From: Alphaproteobacteria bacterium
GTDB taxonomy: Bacteria > Pseudomonadota > Alphaproteobacteria > Micropepsales > Micropepsaceae
Assembly (NCBI GenBank): GCA_025361185.1
Contig: JANYAR010000175.1
Location: forward strand, 30,502-94,501
Direction: 5' to 3'
Length of the DNA stretch: 64,000 nt
Shown: positions 12,994 to 46,069 of the stretch, piece after piece
How the letters are laid out: each line of letters begins with the position of its first letter
Numbering within the stretch: the stretch's first letter is position 1
The notes under the pieces: generated by a model
What the model was told of the DNA's origin: nothing
Databases searched by the model: none
Seen by the model: the letters and a program-made list of their open reading frames with translations, nothing else
Program-made: the position numbers and the translations under genes

Positions 12994-13650
12994 ATGCCTG
13001 CCCCCGACTATGCCCATGAGTCCCGCCTGCTGAAGATCGTGACTGGCCCTATCTGCGGCGTGGACGAAGCCGGACGCGGACCCTTGGCGGGGCCGGTGGT
13101 GGCGGCGGCGGTCATTCTGGACCGCGGACACATTCCGGCCGGGCTGAACGATTCCAAAAAACTTTCGGAAGACCGCCGCGAAAAGCTGTTCCCGCTTATT
13201 ATGCAAATGGCCGTGGCGGTCGGGGTGGGTGAAGCCAGCGTCGAAGAGATCGATCTGGTGAACATCCGCCAGGCCACGCATCTGGCCATGGCCCGCGCGG
13301 TGCGGGCGCTGGCCATCCCGGCGCAATTCGCGCTGGTGGACGGCAACGATGCCCCGGCCCTGTCCTGCAAATGCGAGACCCTGATCAAGGGCGACGGGCT
13401 CAGCCTGTCCATCGCCGCCGCCTCGATCATCGCCAAGGTCACGCGCGACCGGCTGATGGCGCGGCTGCATGACGAACATCCCGGCTACAATTGGCGCAGC
13501 AACAAGGGCTATGGCACCCCCGATCATCATAACGGCCTGAAAATCCACGGGGTCACGATCCATCACCGCCGCAGCTTTGCCCCGATCTACGGCATCCTGG
13601 ATGGGGAAGATTCCGGGCAGGCAGCCTTGCCCAAATCCTGCACAGATTAG
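12994..13650 (+). CDS. rnhB: Ribonuclease HII
   Basis: Cleaves the RNA strand of RNA-DNA hybrids and removes misincorporated ribonucleotides. The N-terminal GVDEAGRGPLAGPVV gives the first two catalytic acids (Asp-Glu), ALVDGNDAP the third, and SIIAKVTRDRLM the fourth. 218 residues is normal. AAAAGGG lies just upstream of ATG. It directly follows the radical SAM gene with an eight-base gap. Confidence 0.95.
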   Translation: MPAPDYAHESRLLKIVTGPICGVDEAGRGPLAGPVVAAAVILDRGHIPAGLNDSKKLSEDRREKLFPLIMQMAVAVGVGEASVEEIDLVNIRQATHLAMARAVRALAIPAQFALVDGNDAPALSCKCETLIKGDGLSLSIAAASIIAKVTRDRLMARLHDEHPGYNWRSNKGYGTPDHHNGLKIHGVTIHHRRSFAPIYGILDGEDSGQAALPKSCTD

Positions 13651-13773
13651 CCATATTGGGGGCATAAATCAGGGCAAATACCCGGCCCGCGCGATCCGGC
13701 GATTAACAAATCGCAACCCACGCTTCGACAAAGACGCTATAATGCTATTTCAAGTTGAGGACGGCGACGCGCA

Positions 13774-13980
13774 ATGCCAATCGGCAGATCACCCATCCGG
13801 TCCCGCAGCAAATGCCCGGAATGCGGCAATCCGCTTTTCTATGTCAGAACGTCGTTCACGTTCCTGACGGGATTGAAGAAACGGCGCTGCCTTGCACCGG
13901 ACTGCGATTTCGTCGATCCGCGCCGCTTCAGGATCACGACGCATCACTATGCGCCGCCCGCCGATCAGTTGCAGGACTGA
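13774..13980 (+). CDS. Small zinc-ribbon protein
   Basis: 68 residues, basic, with two cysteine pairs: CPECG near residue 14 and CLAPDC near residue 39, the layout of a zinc ribbon. No family name is recognised. A TATAAT at 13738 and GAGGA about 12 bases before ATG support expression. Its 3' end overlaps the convergent secreted-protein gene by 16 bases. A nucleic-acid binding or regulatory role would be a guess. Confidence 0.6.
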   Translation: MPIGRSPIRSRSKCPECGNPLFYVRTSFTFLTGLKKRRCLAPDCDFVDPRRFRITTHHYAPPADQLQD

Positions 13981-14588
13981 AGGCGGCCTTCGGGATCGAA
14001 GCTGGCCATAGCGCGCGCGGCGCAAATCATCACCTTGCCTGCCGTATCGGTGAGTGAAACGCCCTGCGTGCCGGAATTGTCCAGGGTGCAGGATTCGATC
14101 CGGCCGTTGGGATAGAACTGCGCCAGCGCGCCGCCGGCGCATTTGACCACCGAACTGACGCGCTGAATGCGCGACAAGGGAACGCCCGGGCCGAGCAGAC
14201 TGAAATTCTGCCCATAGCCATCGCCCGCTTGCGCCAGCTTGCAGCTGTCGCGTGTCCCGCGCAGTTGGCCATTTTCGCAAGGTGCCGCGCGCGTCGCCGG
14301 ATCGGCATTGGTTGCATCGCTGCCATATCCGGCGACCTGCGGAAGATAAGTCGAGATATTGGCCGGCATCGCCGGCGTGTAAGGCTTTCCCCCCAGGCAT
14401 ACCGAGCGGGCCTTCACACAGCGCTCATAGACCGGTTTCCAGTTTTTCCCTTCAGCGTGTGACAGACACGCTTCCCAGGACGATTGGCAGATGGCCTGCC
14501 GGGAATCGGTGCCCTCAGCTGCGGCGGCCAGGCTCAGCAAACATAGGGAGGCGGCTGTCATGAGGGCTTGCCGCGCGTTCCGTTTCAT
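13965..14588 (-). CDS. Secreted cysteine-rich protein
   Basis: 207 residues with a Sec signal (LMTAASLCLLSLAAAAEG). An N-terminal segment holds paired cysteines (ICQSSWEACL and YERCVKARSVCLGG), suggesting disulfides. The C-terminal half carries two related motifs, LAQFYPNGRIESC and MASFDPEGRLQSC, which look like an internal duplication. No family is recognised. It may be co-transcribed with the small ORF at 14616-14825 upstream. Confidence 0.65.
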   Translation of the reverse strand: MKRNARQALMTAASLCLLSLAAAAEGTDSRQAICQSSWEACLSHAEGKNWKPVYERCVKARSVCLGGKPYTPAMPANISTYLPQVAGYGSDATNADPATRAAPCENGQLRGTRDSCKLAQAGDGYGQNFSLLGPGVPLSRIQRVSSVVKCAGGALAQFYPNGRIESCTLDNSGTQGVSLTDTAGKVMICAARAMASFDPEGRLQSCN

Positions 14589-38270: not shown

Positions 38271-38603
38271 ATGACTGCCATGCCCGTGACCCTTTCCGAC
38301 CGCGCCGCCCGGCGGATCGCCGATATTCTTAAGGCCGAAGCGGGTCCGACCGCGTTGCGCCTGGCGGTTACGGGGGGCGGCTGTTCGGGTTTTCAGTATA
38401 ATTTCGCCTTGGACGACGCCCAGCTGGACGAAGACCTGGTGGTGGAAAAAGGCGGCGCGAAACTATTGATCGATCCGGTGTCGCTGGATTTCCTGGCCGG
38501 CGCGGAAATCGATTTCACCGACGATCTGATCGGCCAGGCCTTCAAGGTGAACAATCCCAACGCCACCGCGTCGTGCGGCTGCGGCACCAGTTTCACTGTT
38601 TAG
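38271..38603 (+). CDS. erpA: Iron-sulfur cluster insertion protein
   Basis: 110-residue A-type carrier that delivers Fe-S clusters to apoproteins. All three cysteines are present: GGGCSGFQY and the terminal CGCGTSFTV. ATG 38271 has AGGA at seven bases; the track start at 38235 is earlier and unsupported. Divergent from dgt. Confidence 0.94.
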   Translation: MTAMPVTLSDRAARRIADILKAEAGPTALRLAVTGGGCSGFQYNFALDDAQLDEDLVVEKGGAKLLIDPVSLDFLAGAEIDFTDDLIGQAFKVNNPNATASCGCGTSFTV

Positions 38604-38682: not shown

Positions 38683-39606
38683 ATGACGGAAGGATTTTCG
38701 CGGCGTGAGGCGGCGCTATTGTGTGGCGGCGGCGTGTTGGCGACCGGCCTTGTGCCAGGCGCGAGCGCGCAGCCGACCAAGCCGCTTCTGCGGCGCGCGA
38801 TCCCGCATGGCGGCGGCGAGACTTTGCCGGTTGTGGGCGTGGGCACCTCCGAAGTGTTCGATCTTGCGGCCGGCGACCGGGTGGCTCCGACTGCCGTGGT
38901 CCAGGCCCTGGTCGCGGGCGGCGGCAGCCTGATCGACACCGCACCCTCCTATGGCGAAGCGGAAACTGTGGTCGGCGATGTCGTCGCGGCGACAGGGTTG
39001 CGCCCGCGCGTCTTCATCGCCACCAAACTCGAATATTATCGCCCCGGCCAGGAAGGGGCAGAAGCGCAAAGGTGCCTGCAGCGGCTTAAGACGGAAAAGC
39101 TGGATTTGCTGCAACTCCACAATGTCCGCGACCCTCGCCAAAGCCTGGCGGGCCTCAACGCGCTCAAAGCGCGCGGCCTGTGCCGCTACACCGGCATCAC
39201 CACGACGTTCCAGAACAGCTATGCCGCCGCGGAAGCGATCATAACGCGCGAAAAACCGGACTTCCTGGAGATCGACTATGCGATCGACAACCGCGAGGTG
39301 GAAGACCGCGTTTTGCCCGCAGCGGCGTTGGCGGGAACCGCCGTGCTCGTCGCTTTGCCGTTTGGCCGTGGACGCCTGTTCCGGACCGCCCTTGGCAAAA
39401 AGCTGCCCGACTGGACGGCCGAGTTCGATTGCGCCAGTTGGGGCCAGTTCTTCCTGAAATTCATTCTGGGTCATCCGGCTGTGACCGCCGTCATTCCCGG
39501 CACCAGCAAGGCCCAGCACATGATCGACAATCTCGGCGCCGGACACGGGCGCTTGCCCGACGCCAAACAGCGCGAACGCATGATCCAGTTTGTGGAAACG
39601 CTCTAG
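38683..39606 (+). CDS. Tat-exported aldo/keto reductase
   Basis: 307 residues. ATG 38683 follows AGGAG at good spacing. The N-terminus has a twin-arginine signal (FSRREAALLCGGGVLATGLVPGASA). The TIM-barrel enzyme shows the catalytic Asp and Tyr in LIDTAPSYGEAE, Lys in IATKLE, and LLQLHNVRD with the active-site His. Members reduce carbonyls with NADPH; Tat export would allow the folded protein to leave with its cofactor. It lies directly before two nucleotide-translocase-like genes. Confidence 0.85.
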   Translation: MTEGFSRREAALLCGGGVLATGLVPGASAQPTKPLLRRAIPHGGGETLPVVGVGTSEVFDLAAGDRVAPTAVVQALVAGGGSLIDTAPSYGEAETVVGDVVAATGLRPRVFIATKLEYYRPGQEGAEAQRCLQRLKTEKLDLLQLHNVRDPRQSLAGLNALKARGLCRYTGITTTFQNSYAAAEAIITREKPDFLEIDYAIDNREVEDRVLPAAALAGTAVLVALPFGRGRLFRTALGKKLPDWTAEFDCASWGQFFLKFILGHPAVTAVIPGTSKAQHMIDNLGAGHGRLPDAKQRERMIQFVETL

Positions 39607-39633
39607 CGCTGTGTTAGCGGGCCTGCGCAAATC

Positions 39634-40962
39634 ATGCTATCGGGACCCATGGTCCAAAAGCCTTCGCCGCTTGCGCGCCTGATCGGCCTTACCGTCGCCG
39701 TCGAACCGCAGGAAGTCAAAGCGGTCGCCCTGGCCTTTCTCTTCAATTTCGTGCTGCTGGGCAGCTATTACATCCTGCGGCCGGTGCGCGACACCATGGC
39801 CACCGTGTTCGGCGTCCAAGCTTTGCAGTCCCTGTTCACCGGCACCTTCGTCATCACCCTGGTTTGTGCGCCGGTCTTTGCCTGGTGCGCTTCCAAAATG
39901 AAGCTGGCGCGGCTGCTGCCTGGCGTCTTCTGGTTCCTGCTGATCAATCTGCTGGTCTTTTATGCGCTGTTCCGTCTGGCGCCCCAGAACCGCTGGCTGG
40001 CGGCCGCATTTTTCTGGTGGTTCAGCGTCATCAACCTGTTTCTCATCTCGATCTTCTGGACCTTCATGGCGGATGTGTTTTCGTCCGCCCAGGCAACGCG
40101 GCTGTTTGCCTTCATCGCCGCCGGCGGCAGCACGGGCGCCATCGCCGGTCCGCTCATCACCCGCGCGCTGGCCGGCAGCATCGGAGTGAGCGGCTTGCTG
40201 CTGGTGGCGGGCGCGGGTTTTCTCTGCGTTATTCTTCTGATCCATGCCCTGATGCGGGAAAAGGAAAAGCTGCGGGCGCTGGACAAAGAAGCCCAACAGA
40301 CCACCCTGGATCACAACCTGCCGGGAAATCCCCTGCGCGGCTTTGCGTTACTGCTGAAATCCTCTTTTCTGCTGAACCAGGCCGCGTTCATGCTGTTGAT
40401 GACCTGGATCGCCACAATATTCTATTTCCTGCAGACCGACCTGATCGCCAAGACCTTTCCCGGCATGGAAAGCCGCGCCATCGCCTTTGCGGACGTGGAT
40501 CTGTTCGTCAATATCTGCTCCGCGGTCATTCTGATCTTCGGCCTTGGCCGGGTGTTGCAGCGGTTTGGGGTGACGGCGAGCCTGCTGCTGACCCCGCTGT
40601 TGATGGCGGGCGCCTGTCTGGCGATCGCCCTTGCGCCCAGTTTTTTCCTGATCCAGGCGGCGCGGGCGACGCAGCGCATTTCGCAATATGCCGTCGCCAG
40701 GCCCAGCCGCGAAATCCTGTTCACGGTGGTGGATCAGCAGAGCAAGTATAAAGCCAAGAACGTCATCGACACGGCGGTGTACCGGTTCGGCGATCTGTCC
40801 TCTGCCTGGATACTGGCAGGGATGCGCGCCGCCGGCTTCGGCCTTTTGGGCGCGATGGGTTTCGGAATAGCCGTATCCGCAATGTGGGGCGCCGTCGCCG
40901 TGGCGCTGGGGCGGCGCTACCAGACCCTGGGCGGCAAGCCCGCCTCTGCCGCGGCTGGGTGA
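39634..40962 (+). CDS. ATP/ADP translocase-like (NTP/NDP exchange) transporter 1
   Basis: 442 residues, about 11-12 membrane helices. The family motif PQEVKAVALAFLFNFVLLGSYYILRPVRDTM at the N-terminus and the late SQYAVARPSREILFTVVDQQSKYKAKNVIDT segment are shared with the ATP/ADP translocase group first known from Rickettsia and plastids. Substrate in free-living bacteria is not established. It is a tandem paralogue of the next gene and starts 27 bases after the Tat-exported reductase. An upstream Met at the ORF start is used; MVQKPSPL is an alternative. Confidence 0.8.
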   Translation: MLSGPMVQKPSPLARLIGLTVAVEPQEVKAVALAFLFNFVLLGSYYILRPVRDTMATVFGVQALQSLFTGTFVITLVCAPVFAWCASKMKLARLLPGVFWFLLINLLVFYALFRLAPQNRWLAAAFFWWFSVINLFLISIFWTFMADVFSSAQATRLFAFIAAGGSTGAIAGPLITRALAGSIGVSGLLLVAGAGFLCVILLIHALMREKEKLRALDKEAQQTTLDHNLPGNPLRGFALLLKSSFLLNQAAFMLLMTWIATIFYFLQTDLIAKTFPGMESRAIAFADVDLFVNICSAVILIFGLGRVLQRFGVTASLLLTPLLMAGACLAIALAPSFFLIQAARATQRISQYAVARPSREILFTVVDQQSKYKAKNVIDTAVYRFGDLSSAWILAGMRAAGFGLLGAMGFGIAVSAMWGAVAVALGRRYQTLGGKPASAAAG

Positions 40963-41046
40963 CGCCCAGGCGCTGTCCCAACTTGTTCTTTTGACTATAC
41001 TGGATCAGGGCCGGAGCAAATCCGGAAACCAGGGGAAGGGGCCGTC

Positions 41047-42339
41047 ATGTTTGCGCGCGCGTTGAAGTCCATCGCCGGTATCGAGCCGCACGAGGTCAAG
41101 GCGGTGGTTACCGCCTTTGTCTATTTCTTCTTCCTGATGGCCAGTTATTTCATTCTGCGCCCCCTGCGCGACACAATGGGCACGGTCTATGGCGTCGCCC
41201 ATCTGCAGGAGCTTTTCACCGGCACATTCGTGCTGAGCTTCATCGTGGCGCCGATTTTCGCCGGCCTGGCCTCGCGCATCCGGCTGGCGAGCTTCCTGCC
41301 CTGGGTCTATGGCTTCATCGCCATCACCATGGTGGTGTTCTATTTCCTGTTTCAGAATGTGGCGAATGACCGCTGGGTCGCGGCGGCATTTTATGTCTGG
41401 CTCAGCACCTTCAATCTTCTCACCATTTCGGTGTTCTGGAGCCTGATGGCCGACACGTTCTCCAGTGCCCAGGCCCGGCGCCTGTTCGGCGTCATTGCCG
41501 CTGGCGGCACCGCCGGCACCATCTGCGCGCCGGCCTTTATTGCTCTGTTCGTCAGCAGCGTCGGCACCAACAGCCTGCTGCTGATGTCGGCGGCCGGTTT
41601 TACCGTCACCGCCTTCCTGGTGCGCCTGCTGGAAACGGAAAAGCGCAAGCTCGCCGGCGCGCAGGCTCAGCCGACAACATTGGACCGCAAGCTGGGCGGC
41701 AATCCGTTTGACGGCTTCGCCCTGTTGTTCCGCTCGCGCTATCTTTTGATGATCGCTCTGTTCCTGCTGCTGATGACCTGGATATCCACCGTGATCTATT
41801 TCCAGCTGGGCGATTTGATCAGCAAGGAATTCGCCAGCCGCGCCGCCCGCACCCAGGCCTATGCCACCATCGACCTGGCGACAAATTCCATCGCGGTCCT
41901 GATCCAGCTGTTCGGCACTGGGCGCTTCATCCGGCGCTTCGGTCTCACCACAGGATTGCTGATCAATCCCGTCATCATGGTGCTCGCGTTTGTGGCGGTC
42001 GTTTTCTCGCCGGTGCTGCTGGTGCTGGGCGCGATCCAGGTGACGCGGCGCTTTTCAGAATATGCCATCGCCAAGCCCAGCCGCGACATGCTGTTCACGG
42101 TGGTGGATCAGCAGGCCAAGTACAAAGCCAAGAATGTGATCGAGACGGTGGTCTATCGCTTCGGCGATCTGACCTCGTCCTGGGTCAGCGCCGCGGTGCT
42201 GCCGTTCGGTGTGGCCGGGCTTGCGGTGTTCGGCATCGCGATTGCGGTCGTGTGGTTCCCCGTCGCCTGGCTGCTGGGCCGCCAGTACGAGGCCGTGCGT
42301 GACGGCACCGTCCTGGTTACATCCCCAACTTCTGCTTGA
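41047..42339 (+). CDS. ATP/ADP translocase-like (NTP/NDP exchange) transporter 2
   Basis: 430 residues with the same layout as the previous gene: PHEVKAVVTAFVYFFFLMASYFILRPLRDTMGTVYGV at the start and SEYAIAKPSRDMLFTVVDQQAKYKAKNVIET late in the chain. GGGGAAGGGG precedes ATG. The pair has clearly diverged, so the two copies may differ in substrate. Its end overlaps the convergent F420-reductase-like gene by 23 bases. Confidence 0.8.
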   Translation: MFARALKSIAGIEPHEVKAVVTAFVYFFFLMASYFILRPLRDTMGTVYGVAHLQELFTGTFVLSFIVAPIFAGLASRIRLASFLPWVYGFIAITMVVFYFLFQNVANDRWVAAAFYVWLSTFNLLTISVFWSLMADTFSSAQARRLFGVIAAGGTAGTICAPAFIALFVSSVGTNSLLLMSAAGFTVTAFLVRLLETEKRKLAGAQAQPTTLDRKLGGNPFDGFALLFRSRYLLMIALFLLLMTWISTVIYFQLGDLISKEFASRAARTQAYATIDLATNSIAVLIQLFGTGRFIRRFGLTTGLLINPVIMVLAFVAVVFSPVLLVLGAIQVTRRFSEYAIAKPSRDMLFTVVDQQAKYKAKNVIETVVYRFGDLTSSWVSAAVLPFGVAGLAVFGIAIAVVWFPVAWLLGRQYEAVRDGTVLVTSPTSA

Positions 42340-43033
42340 GCTCGGCGGCGCTTCCCGCCACGCCATAGCCGGGCCCGCCGCGCTGCTGGAATTTCTTGGC
42401 GCTGTCCAGCCCGCCGACCAGCACCGGCTCGAAGCCGGCATCGCGTACTAGGGCCTGGGCGACGCGCACCGCTTCGGCATCGTCACCGGCAATGGGAATC
42501 GCCAATTTTGGATCAGCCCGGTTCGACTGGGTCTTGAAGGTATTCCAGCCCAGGGTGTTGAAGGCGCGCACCAGACGCGTGCCGGCGAGATATTTCTGCG
42601 AGGTGACGCCGGTGCCGTTCTCGTCGGCTTCCTTGGTAATGGCGTCGCCATCGCGGGTAGGAACCGCGTTGCAGGCGTCCAGTATGACCTTGCCCTTCAG
42701 CGCGGCGCGATAGTCAGTTCCGATCTGGGGCAAGGCGGCGTATGGGACGGCAATGAACAGCGCATCGCCAAAGGCGATGGCCTGGGCCACGGTGCCGGCA
42801 TGGGCCAGGGGGCCGAGCTCGGCCACCATATCCTTGAGTTCGTCGGGGTTGCGGGAGGAGAACATCACCGGATGGCCGCTCTTGACCCACAGGGCGCCGA
42901 CCGCACCGCCGATATTGCCGGCCCCGATCACGCCGATGGACCGCTTGACCTGCGCCAAGGCCCGTGGCGCGGCGGCAACCGCCATTGCGCTGCTGGCGGC
43001 AAGCAGGGTGCGGCGGGTGAAGAGCTGGTGCAT
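42317..43033 (-). CDS. Tat-exported NADPH-dependent F420 reductase-like protein
   Basis: 238 residues from ATG 43033, which has GGGAGG five bases upstream. The N-terminus is a twin-arginine signal (FTRRTLLAASSAMAVAAAPRALA). It is followed by a Rossmann dinucleotide motif, SIGVIGAGNIGGAVGALW, and the F420:NADP oxidoreductase-like core (VRAFNTLGWNTF and IAGDDAEAVRVAQALVRDAGF). The real substrate is unknown, and F420 itself is not implied. It is the second Tat-exported NAD(P)-type enzyme beside the translocases. Confidence 0.82.
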   Translation of the reverse strand: MHQLFTRRTLLAASSAMAVAAAPRALAQVKRSIGVIGAGNIGGAVGALWVKSGHPVMFSSRNPDELKDMVAELGPLAHAGTVAQAIAFGDALFIAVPYAALPQIGTDYRAALKGKVILDACNAVPTRDGDAITKEADENGTGVTSQKYLAGTRLVRAFNTLGWNTFKTQSNRADPKLAIPIAGDDAEAVRVAQALVRDAGFEPVLVGGLDSAKKFQQRGGPGYGVAGSAAELKQKLGM

Positions 43034-43209
43034 CGGAACCTCCCATTTTTGCCGCAAGGTTACGCCAAGCGCGCGGTTTCGCAACCGGCTTGCCTCAAAT
43101 CCGGCCGGACAGGAGAATTCATAACGAAATCAGCGGCAGCCTATATTGGTGCCTGATCTGCTTTGCGGTAATTTGCCGCCTAAGGGAAACAAATAAGGGG
43201 AGAAACGCC

Positions 43210-43986
43210 GTGAAGCATCAATGGATTGTGGCAGGCGTCTTAGCCGCGCTTGCTTTGTCGTTTCCGGCCAGCGCCCAGATCGCGGGGTCCGACCATTTCG
43301 CGACCTCGGGCGGTGCGGTGGACATCGTCCCCATCCATCATGCCAGCTTGATGCTCGCCTATAAGGGTACGCATATCCTGATCGACCCGGCGCCGCTGGA
43401 CGGCGCACAGGGTGACGCGGTCACGGCGCCCTACAAGGCGATGCCGCGGCCCGACCTGATCCTGATCACCCATATTCATGGCGATCATTTCAATGCGCCG
43501 ATCCTGCAGGCGGTCGCCGGGCCGAACACCGTGATCCTGGCGCCGCAGAATGTGCGCGACGCCATGCCCGCCGATCTTCAGGCCAAAGTGAAGGTGATGA
43601 AAAATGGCGACCATGATGTGTTCGCCGCCATCCCGGTCGATGCGGTGGCGATGTACAACACCACACCGGCAAAAATGAATTTCCACCCCAAGGGTCTTGG
43701 CAATGGCTATGTCCTCGGCTTTGCCGACAAACGTGTCTATGTCGCCGGCGACACCGAAGAGACGCCGGAGCTGGCCCATCTCGCCAATATCGATCTGGCG
43801 TTCATTCCGGCCAACCTGCCCTACACCCAGACGGTGGAGGCGGCGGCCAAATGGGTGACGGATTTCCGCCCCAAGATGGTCTTCCCCTATCACTATCGCA
43901 ACCAGGACGGCACCACGAGCGATATGGCCGCCTTCTCCACCCTGGTCGGCAAGGCCAGTCTGGTGCGTTTGCGCAAATGGTATTGA
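43210..43986 (+). CDS. Exported metallo-beta-lactamase-fold hydrolase
   Basis: 258 residues from GTG 43210 with GGGGAG upstream; the track start at 43090 has no support. A Sec signal (IVAGVLAALALSFPASAQ) precedes an UlaG-like MBL domain with metal motif ITHIHGDHFNAPIL and a later RVYVAGDTEETPE. Substrate unknown. Its last ten bases overlap the start of the following dehydrogenase gene. Confidence 0.85.
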   Translation: MKHQWIVAGVLAALALSFPASAQIAGSDHFATSGGAVDIVPIHHASLMLAYKGTHILIDPAPLDGAQGDAVTAPYKAMPRPDLILITHIHGDHFNAPILQAVAGPNTVILAPQNVRDAMPADLQAKVKVMKNGDHDVFAAIPVDAVAMYNTTPAKMNFHPKGLGNGYVLGFADKRVYVAGDTEETPELAHLANIDLAFIPANLPYTQTVEAAAKWVTDFRPKMVFPYHYRNQDGTTSDMAAFSTLVGKASLVRLRKWY

Positions 43987-45209
43987 AAAAACCGCTCATC
44001 GTTTTTGCCGCCCTGCTGTTCGCCATCACTCCGGCCTATGCGCAGATTGCCGGCACCGCCAATCTCGACGGCCCGCAGCCGATGGTGAACACTCCGATCC
44101 CCGACGGCGATTTCGCCGCCGTGGCAAAGAAGCTGGGGCTGGTGGAAAGCGCCAAGCCCGCGCGCGAGTTGATCAAGGGCTGGCAGACGCCGCGCAAGAT
44201 CCTGGTGGGTGTGGACAACAACACCAACCGCCTGGCCTGGCTGCAGGCGGCGGCGCCCGGCGTCAAGCTGGTGGCGGTGCGCACACCGGAAGAAAAAAAG
44301 CGGGAGATCGCCGACGCCGATGCCTTGTTGCGCATGCCCTGCACCCGCGAAGACATCGCCGCGGGCAAGAAGCTGCATTGGATTCAGCAGGGCAGCGTCA
44401 CCGTCGCCGGCTGTTTCGCGGCCGCCGAACATACCAGCGTCCGCCAGGAGGTGCCGCAGCAGCTGATGGACGGCACCGTGGTCATCACCAATCTACAGGG
44501 TGTTCTCACCCGCCCGCTGGCCGAACATGCCATCGCCATGATGATGACATTGGGCCGCGCCCTCGACATCAATGTGCTGCAGCAAGCCAAGGGACATTTC
44601 GACCGCGCCGCGATCCCGCCGGGGCGGCTTTGGGTGTTTGAAGGACGCACCTTGCTGGTGGTCGGGTTGGGCGGCATCGGCACCCAGGTGGCGCAGATCG
44701 CCCATGGATTGGGCATGACTGTGATCGCCACCCGCAATTCCGGCCATCAGGGACCGGACACTGTCAGTTATGTGGGACTGTCCAGCGAGTTGCCGGAAAT
44801 GGTCGGCAAGGCCGATGTCGTAGTGTTGGCGGCGCCGCTGACACCGGACACCCAGCATCTGTTCAATGCCGCGATGTTCGCGCGCATGAAAAAGGGCGCG
44901 CTGCTGATCAATATCGCCAGCGGCGGGGAAGTGGTGAGCAACGATCTGGTCGCAGCCCTGAAATCCGGCCAGCTCGGCGGCGCCGGACTGGATCTGGCCG
45001 ATCCGGAAAATCCGTCCAGGCTGGCGCCCGGCGATCCGCTGTTCAGCGCGCCGAACCTGATCATGTCGCCCGAGACAGCCTCCCATGCGGTCGATACCGA
45101 GGCGGCGTCCGGCGGCGAAGACATGTGGATCATCGCGCGTGAAAATCTCAAGCGCTATATCGCCGGCGACAAGCTTTATTCCGTGGTGGACGCCAAGCGC
45201 GGCTATTAG
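43977..45209 (+). CDS. Exported D-2-hydroxyacid dehydrogenase homologue, altered active site
   Basis: 410 residues from ATG 43977. A Sec signal (MVLKKPLIVFAALLFAITPAYAQ) is followed by a catalytic domain and an NAD-binding domain with VVGLGGIGTQVAQIAHGLGM. The usual catalytic Arg in the NxxRG motif is Ser here (NIASGGEV), and the expected Pro-His motif near the end reads SPETAS. The Glu position appears kept (DPENP). Either the chemistry differs or it is a binding protein. An exported NAD-fold enzyme using Sec, not Tat, is unusual. Translation is probably coupled to the hydrolase gene. Confidence 0.83.
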   Translation: MVLKKPLIVFAALLFAITPAYAQIAGTANLDGPQPMVNTPIPDGDFAAVAKKLGLVESAKPARELIKGWQTPRKILVGVDNNTNRLAWLQAAAPGVKLVAVRTPEEKKREIADADALLRMPCTREDIAAGKKLHWIQQGSVTVAGCFAAAEHTSVRQEVPQQLMDGTVVITNLQGVLTRPLAEHAIAMMMTLGRALDINVLQQAKGHFDRAAIPPGRLWVFEGRTLLVVGLGGIGTQVAQIAHGLGMTVIATRNSGHQGPDTVSYVGLSSELPEMVGKADVVVLAAPLTPDTQHLFNAAMFARMKKGALLINIASGGEVVSNDLVAALKSGQLGGAGLDLADPENPSRLAPGDPLFSAPNLIMSPETASHAVDTEAASGGEDMWIIARENLKRYIAGDKLYSVVDAKRGY

Positions 45210-45286: not shown

Positions 45287-46069
45287 ATGAAAATCGCCAC
45301 CTGGAATGTGAACTCCATCAAAGCCCGGCTGGAACCGGCGCTGGCCTGGCTGAAGGCGGCCGATCCCGATGTCGTGGCCTTGCAGGAAATCAAGACGGTG
45401 GACGAAGGTTTTCCGCGCGAGGCCTTCGAAAGCCTGGGCTATAATTGCACCGTACACGGACAAAAAAGCTATAACGGCGTCGCCATTTTGTCCAAGCGGC
45501 CGGTGGAGGATGTCACGCCGCGCCTGCATGGCGACGATGCCGACGACCATGCCCGCTATCTGGAAGCGGTGATCACCGGCGATCACGGCACTGTGCGGGT
45601 GGCATCCATTTATGCCCCCAACGGCAATCCCTTTCCCGGTCCGAAATTCGACTACAAGCTGGCCTGGCTGGAGCGGCTGCGCCGGCATGCCCAGAAACTG
45701 CTGGCCGATGAAGAGCCAGTCGTGCTGATGGGCGACTACAATATCATTCCCGAAGACAAGGACGCGGACAGGCCGAAAGCCTGGCTGAAGGATGCCCTGT
45801 TCCAGCCCCAGTCCAAGGCGGCGCTGCGGCGGATCGAAAATCTGGGCTACACCGACGCCTATCGCGCCCTGCATCCGGAAGGCGGGCACTACACCTTCTG
45901 GGATTATTTCGGATCCTGGGAGCGCAACAACGGCATCCGCATCGATCATCTCCTGCTGTCGCCGCAGGCCCTGGACCGGCTGACCAAGGCCGGTATCGAC
46001 AAGGAGGTGCGGGGCGCCAGCGAGAAACCATCCGACCATGTTCCGGTGTGGGTGGAACTATCGATCTAG
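45287..46069 (+). CDS. xthA: Exodeoxyribonuclease III
   Basis: 260-residue AP endonuclease and 3'-5' exonuclease. Family motifs: ATWNVNSIKARL, VVALQEIKTVDEGFPREAFE (catalytic Glu), LMGDYNIIPEDKD, and the C-terminal NNGIRIDHLLLSP and SDHVPVWVEL with the catalytic Asp-His. It works with the UDG and MutY in this window in base-excision repair. A clear promoter was not identified. Confidence 0.95.
   Translation: MKIATWNVNSIKARLEPALAWLKAADPDVVALQEIKTVDEGFPREAFESLGYNCTVHGQKSYNGVAILSKRPVEDVTPRLHGDDADDHARYLEAVITGDHGTVRVASIYAPNGNPFPGPKFDYKLAWLERLRRHAQKLLADEEPVVLMGDYNIIPEDKDADRPKAWLKDALFQPQSKAALRRIENLGYTDAYRALHPEGGHYTFWDYFGSWERNNGIRIDHLLLSPQALDRLTKAGIDKEVRGASEKPSDHVPVWVELSI

Follow-up and report, generated by a model that had tools for sequence, protein, structure and literature searches.

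Exported NAD(P)-binding oxidoreductases are paired with a divergent, NTT-related membrane carrier in Proteobacteria

The window (the whole stretch of 64,000 nucleotides that was analyzed) comes from an alphaproteobacterial draft assembly of 182 contigs. The six open reading frames that had been predicted between positions 38683 and 45209 are all intact and lie exactly where predicted, with genes for ErpA and exonuclease III on the two flanks (Table 1). An AKR and the two carriers, A and B, are co-directional, with gaps of 42 bp (AKR to carrier A) and 84 bp (carrier A to carrier B), and neither gap yielded a convincing promoter or terminator. The gene of the F420/NADP-oxidoreductase-like (F420-type) protein is convergent with that of carrier B, with a 3' overlap of 23 bp, and the genes of the MBL hydrolase and the dehydrogenase homologue overlap by 10 bp. 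A single operon of all six genes is not supported since the strands differ, and to that extent the original prediction, which had held that the genes are not one operon, was right; it goes too far for the AKR and the carriers, which can be one operon because of their common direction and these two gaps.

Table 1. Genes at the locus and its flanks (positions in the window)
Feature	Position	Strand	Profile match or remark
AKR, Tat-exported (predicted), 307 aa	38683..39606	+	PF00248 87.2 bits; SRREAALL Tat-type motif
Carrier A, NTT-related MFS protein, 437 aa	39649..40962	+	MFS_1 39.9 bits
Carrier B, NTT-related MFS protein, 430 aa	41047..42339	+	PF03219 TLC 40.4 bits
F420/NADP-oxidoreductase-like Rossmann protein, Tat-exported (predicted), 238 aa	42317..43033	-	PF03807 57.6 bits
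MBL-fold metal-dependent hydrolase, exported (Sec type, predicted)	43210..43986	+	PF12706, PF13483 ~61 bits
D-2-hydroxyacid-dehydrogenase homologue, Sec-exported (predicted), 410 aa	43977..45209	+	PF02826 137.9 bits
ErpA	38274-38603		One flank of six-gene locus
Exonuclease III	45287-46069		Other flank of six-gene locus

Export signals in the window and in homologues were judged by motif inspection (twin-arginine n-region, weakly hydrophobic core, AxA site). By this inspection, the AKR, with the N-terminus MTEGFSRREAALL, and the F420-type protein, with the N-terminus MHQLFTRRTLL and the motif FTRRTLLAASS, have Tat-type leaders, as do nearly all of their homologues beside carriers, and the two Tat-exported reductase-like proteins that had been predicted are indeed present. 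The AKR is a member of the AKR superfamily by its PF00248 match and its Asp-Tyr-Lys-His tetrad, which is complete in the window (D85, Y90, K115, H146) and is kept in 69 to 71 of the 71 alignable homologues adjoining carriers. Its cofactor loop, IPGTSKxxHxxDN, resembles that of NADPH-binding AKRs, so that use of NADP(H) is predicted. The F420-type protein has the GAGNIG motif, and its relatives in the PDB are STEAP3 and F420:NADP oxidoreductase. With 33.1 bits it fell below the cut-off of NCBIfam TIGR01915 (npdG; 149.8 bits); judged by these profiles, it is a member only of the wider F420_oxidored domain family and not of npdG.

The exported MBL hydrolase and the exported hydroxyacid-dehydrogenase homologue had also been foreseen correctly. 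In the dehydrogenase homologue, the NAD-binding glycine motif is intact, the catalytic Arg is replaced by Ser and the catalytic His by Glu, and NIASGG and SPETAS stand where the usual NxxRG and TPH are expected. The same replacements occur in the homologue of locus L022 (2355-3521), and a more distant homologue in L020 (about 13417-14511) keeps both Arg and His, in the usual NxxRG and TPH. With these residues lost, the window protein may not be an active dehydrogenase. An MBL hydrolase next to carriers was found in near relatives (L014, L022), and a different one in Azotobacter (L242). Since their association with the carriers is confined to near relatives and loose cases, the MBL hydrolase and the hydroxyacid-dehydrogenase homologue were rejected as core members; from these gene orders, the tie of both to the recurring unit appears weak.

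Carriers A and B are 50% identical. Carrier B exceeded the cut-off of Pfam TLC (21 bits), and carrier A gave no TLC match at E 0.001; TLC was matched by 13 of 20 family members and MFS_1 by all 20 sequences of a carrier profile, A1. Both carriers (A, 24.6 bits; B, 38.5 bits) fell short of the 387.2-bit cut-off of TIGR00769 (NTP/NDP exchange transporter). The best solved relatives of profile A1 were Chlamydia and Arabidopsis NTT1 (E 1.5e-21 and 2e-10). Carrier B, as modeled by AlphaFold (pLDDT 86), has the 12-helix NTT fold; NTT1 takes the first four places among the PDB matches of the model (E 5e-11 to 3e-7), other MFS folds rank lower, and the model superimposes on the NTT1 structures 9j3n and 9j3m with TM scores of 0.75 to 0.82. 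The closest solved relatives of the carriers are ATP-bound NTT1 structures. When 30 canonical NTTs from alphaproteobacterial genomes were aligned with the carriers, invariant E, Y, R, W, P, and KxK positions were common to both, which confirms the homology.

Four charged residues, K155, E245, E385, and K527 of AtNTT1, matter for ATP transport by NTTs (PMC4256464). With this numbering transferred via an alignment of the AtNTT1 chain, every one of the 30 canonical NTTs had all four. In the 103 carriers scored, which were linked or in-clade, a gap stands at K155, and S, Y, and D take the places of E245, E385, and K527, respectively; exceptions to this pattern are single, and none restores the charge. 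In carrier B, the residues specific to the family are S120, Y251, and D374, and R41, R145, R346, K360, K362, and R371 are conserved. Since the replacements are near-invariant, the carrier family probably has a single type of substrate of its own. The lost charges weigh against ATP/ADP as this substrate and would be compatible with NAD(P). The carriers are best described as a sister family of the NTTs, with membership in the NTT family putative. Of the earlier term "ATP/ADP-translocase-family carriers," the kinship with NTTs is borne out by profile and fold, but the name "ATP/ADP translocase" is rejected because all four functional charged residues are replaced.

The carrier family was found in 50 of 398 sampled Pseudomonadota genomes (E ≤1e-15), in 54 of 369 gammaproteobacterial genomes, and in 15 of 386 alphaproteobacterial genomes. 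The spread is patchy; a close carrier pair occurs in only 3 of 37 genomes of the window's own genus. The closest named relatives of the window carriers include a Micropepsaceae MAG, and family members, where annotated, are labeled MFS transporter and nothing more. An intracellular lifestyle is not supported as an explanation: among the hosts are Pseudomonas, Lysobacter, Achromobacter, and Cupriavidus, all free-living, and the carrier genomes are mostly 3 to 7 Mb in size.

The surrounding DNA was read at 118 further loci. The main clade comprises 102 carriers from some 50 families or named groups within the Alpha-, Beta-, and Gammaproteobacteria, and 87 of them have an NAD(P)-binding enzyme next to them, which in nearly every case bears an export signal; no neighbor of this kind was found at 15 main-clade and 21 deeper carriers. 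In a first set, the carrier and the top AKR (E about 1e-114 or better) were adjacent in 22/22 sampled genomes that have both. The two genes are usually on the same strand and overlap or are separated by a few bases, and practically every AKR neighbor carries a leader of the twin-arginine type. Enzyme and carrier are often translationally coupled, with stop/start overlaps, for example, in L081, L082, L184, L201, L231, and L232, and the gene string AKR-F420-carrier is found in five genomes of one family.

As a control, exported NAD(P) enzymes were counted in the flanking DNA, with export called by an automatic signal rule. We found 81 in the 241 kb within ~1 kb of carriers versus ~4 in the other 995 kb, an enrichment of about 80-fold over a base rate taken from flanking DNA; the ~4 distant matches are mostly members of the same clusters. 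The detection profiles were partly seeded from these loci and find relatives rather than every dehydrogenase, which limits the distant count equally. The signal rule misses leaders where an ORF start is over-extended, and by eye nearly all remaining neighbors have one. In the 1.5-kb flanks of the 30 canonical NTT loci, no exported NAD(P) enzyme was found. A lack of recurrence beside exported oxidoreductases had been named beforehand as an outcome that would refute the idea of a periplasmic cofactor economy. The outcome was the reverse, with enzymes of five Pfam families, which agrees with carriers that serve exported NAD(P) enzymes and in part supports the original interpretation; the caveat that co-location could be chance does not hold up, since the recurrence across families and the flanking-DNA control argue against it. 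Exported NAD(P)-binding oxidoreductase and divergent NTT-related inner-membrane carrier form a conserved two-part module, irrespective of whether a cofactor is transported.

The enzyme in this module is variable. The partners of the 102 main-clade carriers are AKR (69), SDR (8), F420/NADP-type (5), NmrA-type (4), and zinc-ADH-type (1) proteins, with none in 15 cases, and the five families (AKR, SDR, NmrA/NAD_binding_10, F420_oxidored, and zinc-ADH) have unrelated or distantly related folds. Over all carriers, the partner labels require 23 changes and the SDR label at least 3, on a quick tree (SH-aLRT only) with long basal branches and weakly supported internal forks. Pseudomonas-type genomes with two carriers have a Tat AKR next to one and an exported SDR next to the other (L063, L064, L070, L072). 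An exported SDR also lies beside the carrier in L088, L089, L213, L218, and L237, an exported or lipoprotein NmrA/NAD_binding_10 protein in L205, L211, L237, and L238, and an F420/NADP-type partner in L019, L021, and L081-L087; in L016, the partner is an exported zinc-ADH-type protein, with a cupin gene between it and the carrier. In the L017 cluster, a Tat AKR and two exported SDRs stand together with two carriers and an exported enzyme of the nucleotide pyrophosphatase type. Not all partners are Tat substrates: several SDR and NmrA proteins bear a Sec or lipoprotein signal (L088, L089, L205, L211, L213, L218, L238, L246). The nicotinamide cofactor, as predicted from the families, appears to be the sole feature common to all partners, which share no single fold or obvious substrate.

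Carrier modules are also present on megaplasmids and plasmids of Cupriavidus, Azotobacter, Pantoea, and Catenovulum (L241-L244, L246), which is consistent with horizontal spread. Azotobacter pAcX50f has the gene row Tat SDR, MBL, carrier, and Tat F420-type; Pantoea pPAT9B04 has a carrier and a Tat F420-type protein, Catenovulum a Sec SDR and a carrier, and Cupriavidus metallidurans CH34 a Tat AKR and a carrier, the latter at about 1426863-1428224 of NC_007974.2. In the SDR of pAcX50f and the NAD-binding protein of pPAT9B04, the annotated starts are too late and hide the Tat leader.

Outside the main clade, the picture is different. The deep carriers occupy 22 rows on the tree, and only one of these has an exported NAD(P) neighbor; their inclusion in the same system is not supported, and they may serve another function. 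The deeper carriers without such a neighbor include L090-L098, L099, L100, L215-L217, L220, and L224-L229. Several deeper carriers of family f71 lie near small membrane proteins or near GMC oxidoreductase-like or exported beta-lactamase-family genes. Exported AKRs also occur without a carrier, and in 10 of 20 such loci (L167, L168, L170-L173, L176-L179) a polytopic membrane protein, DUF6064 (PF19540), is directly adjacent. DUF6064 has no conserved histidines of the kind suggesting a heme protein. With either a carrier or DUF6064 beside them, exported AKRs tend to keep some membrane partner.

What could the carrier transport? We see an even chance that it is an inner-membrane NAD(P)(H) exchanger that serves periplasmic dehydrogenases, both the substrate and the antiport mode being deduced from kinship and context. 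It would exchange nicotinamide nucleotide over the inner membrane, with the reduced form going out and the oxidized form coming back, or would supply NAD(P), and this exchange would let periplasmic AKR, SDR, F420/NADP-type, and similar enzymes turn over. In the envelope, these enzymes probably reduce carbonyls or other electrophiles, as far as their substrates can be predicted. Sec-exported and lipoprotein partners fold outside, so they bring along no folded-in cofactor and must meet it there. Since the NTT family includes a known NAD+ carrier (PMC5381601), the carrier would be the simplest source. The recurrence, the switching between partners with a nicotinamide cofactor in common, the enrichment beside carriers, and the NTT-like fold also speak for an exchanger, as does the nucleotide pyrophosphatase-type enzyme of L017. 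The gap/S/Y/D replacements, the 15 main-clade and 21 deeper carriers without a partner, the exported AKRs that lack a carrier, and the signal-less AKR adjoining the plasmid carrier of Pantoea L243 count against an exchanger, as does the fact that Tat-exported AKRs could bring a bound cofactor along. The more general idea that free-living Proteobacteria have a periplasmic nicotinamide-cofactor economy, in which an NTT-derived antiporter exchanges NADPH/NADH for NAD(P)+ and feeds exported dehydrogenases of several folds, is tentative, and we hold it slightly more doubtful than not. The open-access literature, as far as covered, has nothing on point on a periplasmic NAD(P)H pool or on reductases beside NTT-like carriers, which, with this partial coverage, is weak evidence.

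If the carrier moved an organic compound that the exported enzymes use or make, such as an aldehyde, ketone, alcohol, or sugar derivative, in the manner of common enzyme-transporter operons, the cofactor would have to arrive otherwise. This is the main rival because AKR, SDR, and ADH enzymes all act on carbonyls: they interconvert carbonyls and alcohols, and a common organic substrate could be the cause of the pairing. The MFS_1 matches of the whole A1 profile and the replaced NTT charges would also fit. However, the partners of the same carrier subfamily include F420/NADP-type and NmrA-type proteins, neither of them a typical kind of carbonyl reductase; of two close Pseudomonas-type paralogues, one adjoins an AKR and the other an SDR; and the cofactor of the Sec-exported partners would be left unexplained. 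We regard an organic-substrate carrier as rather unlikely. The Tat signals on nearly all AKR and F420-type partners, and the existence of carrier-less exported AKRs, would be expected if the enzymes brought tightly bound NADP(H) through Tat and recycled it internally between two substrates, the carrier being only coregulated, for example under envelope stress. This is impossible for the Sec and lipoprotein partners, and translational coupling and an adjacency kept across many families point to a joint function; we consider it improbable. Salvage, in which the carrier would import nucleotides, NAD, or fragments set free in the envelope, with the exported proteins as substrates or accessories of such a pathway, would agree with the NTT kinship and with the exported type I phosphodiesterase/nucleotide pyrophosphatase between the two carriers of L017 (1738-3486) but is very improbable, since this enzyme is found in one cluster only and it is intact oxidoreductases rather than hydrolases that are kept everywhere.

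To our knowledge, the periplasm is believed to contain no free NAD(P)H, with soluble NAD(P)H chemistry as a rule confined to the cytoplasm; redox chemistry in the envelope is thought to use quinones, hemes, thiols, and preloaded cofactors. If the carrier is indeed an NAD(P)(H) exchanger, nicotinamide reducing power would gain a route across the inner membrane, that rule would be overturned, and a role would be at hand for many genes labeled MFS transporter in Pseudomonas, Lysobacter, Cupriavidus, Azotobacter, and many others. A categorically new status of the system hinges on this reading; the conserved module is independent of it, and the pairing of carrier and enzyme makes the question of a periplasmic cofactor testable in common laboratory strains.

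Uncharacterized NTT-like proteins, NTT-HEAT fusions among them, have been described in free-living bacteria (PMC5381601), in a paper whose main text nowhere mentions reductases. Like these, the present proteins are NTT-related carriers in free-living Proteobacteria, but HEAT and cNBD domains are absent from them. The F420-type partner shares its NADP-binding domain family with STEAP metalloreductases and F420:NADP oxidoreductase; unlike STEAP, it is a separate Tat-exported protein and has no fused transmembrane heme domain. The glucose-fructose oxidoreductase of Zymomonas, an enzyme of the Gfo/Idh/MocA fold, is Tat exported with bound NADP, which it recycles internally. It is likewise an NADP-dependent oxidoreductase at work in the periplasm after Tat export, and we know of no conserved carrier partner for it. 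The NTT/TLC ATP-ADP translocases (PF03219, TIGR00769) occur in Chlamydiae, Rickettsiales, and plastids and include the NAD+ carrier PamNTT4. The carriers described here are homologous to them over most of their length, NTT1 is the closest solved fold, and nucleotide antiport is borrowed from them as a model. In contrast to these translocases, the carriers have lost the four functional charges, are far below the TIGR00769 cut-off, live in free-living hosts, and are linked to exported oxidoreductases, as canonical NTTs are not.
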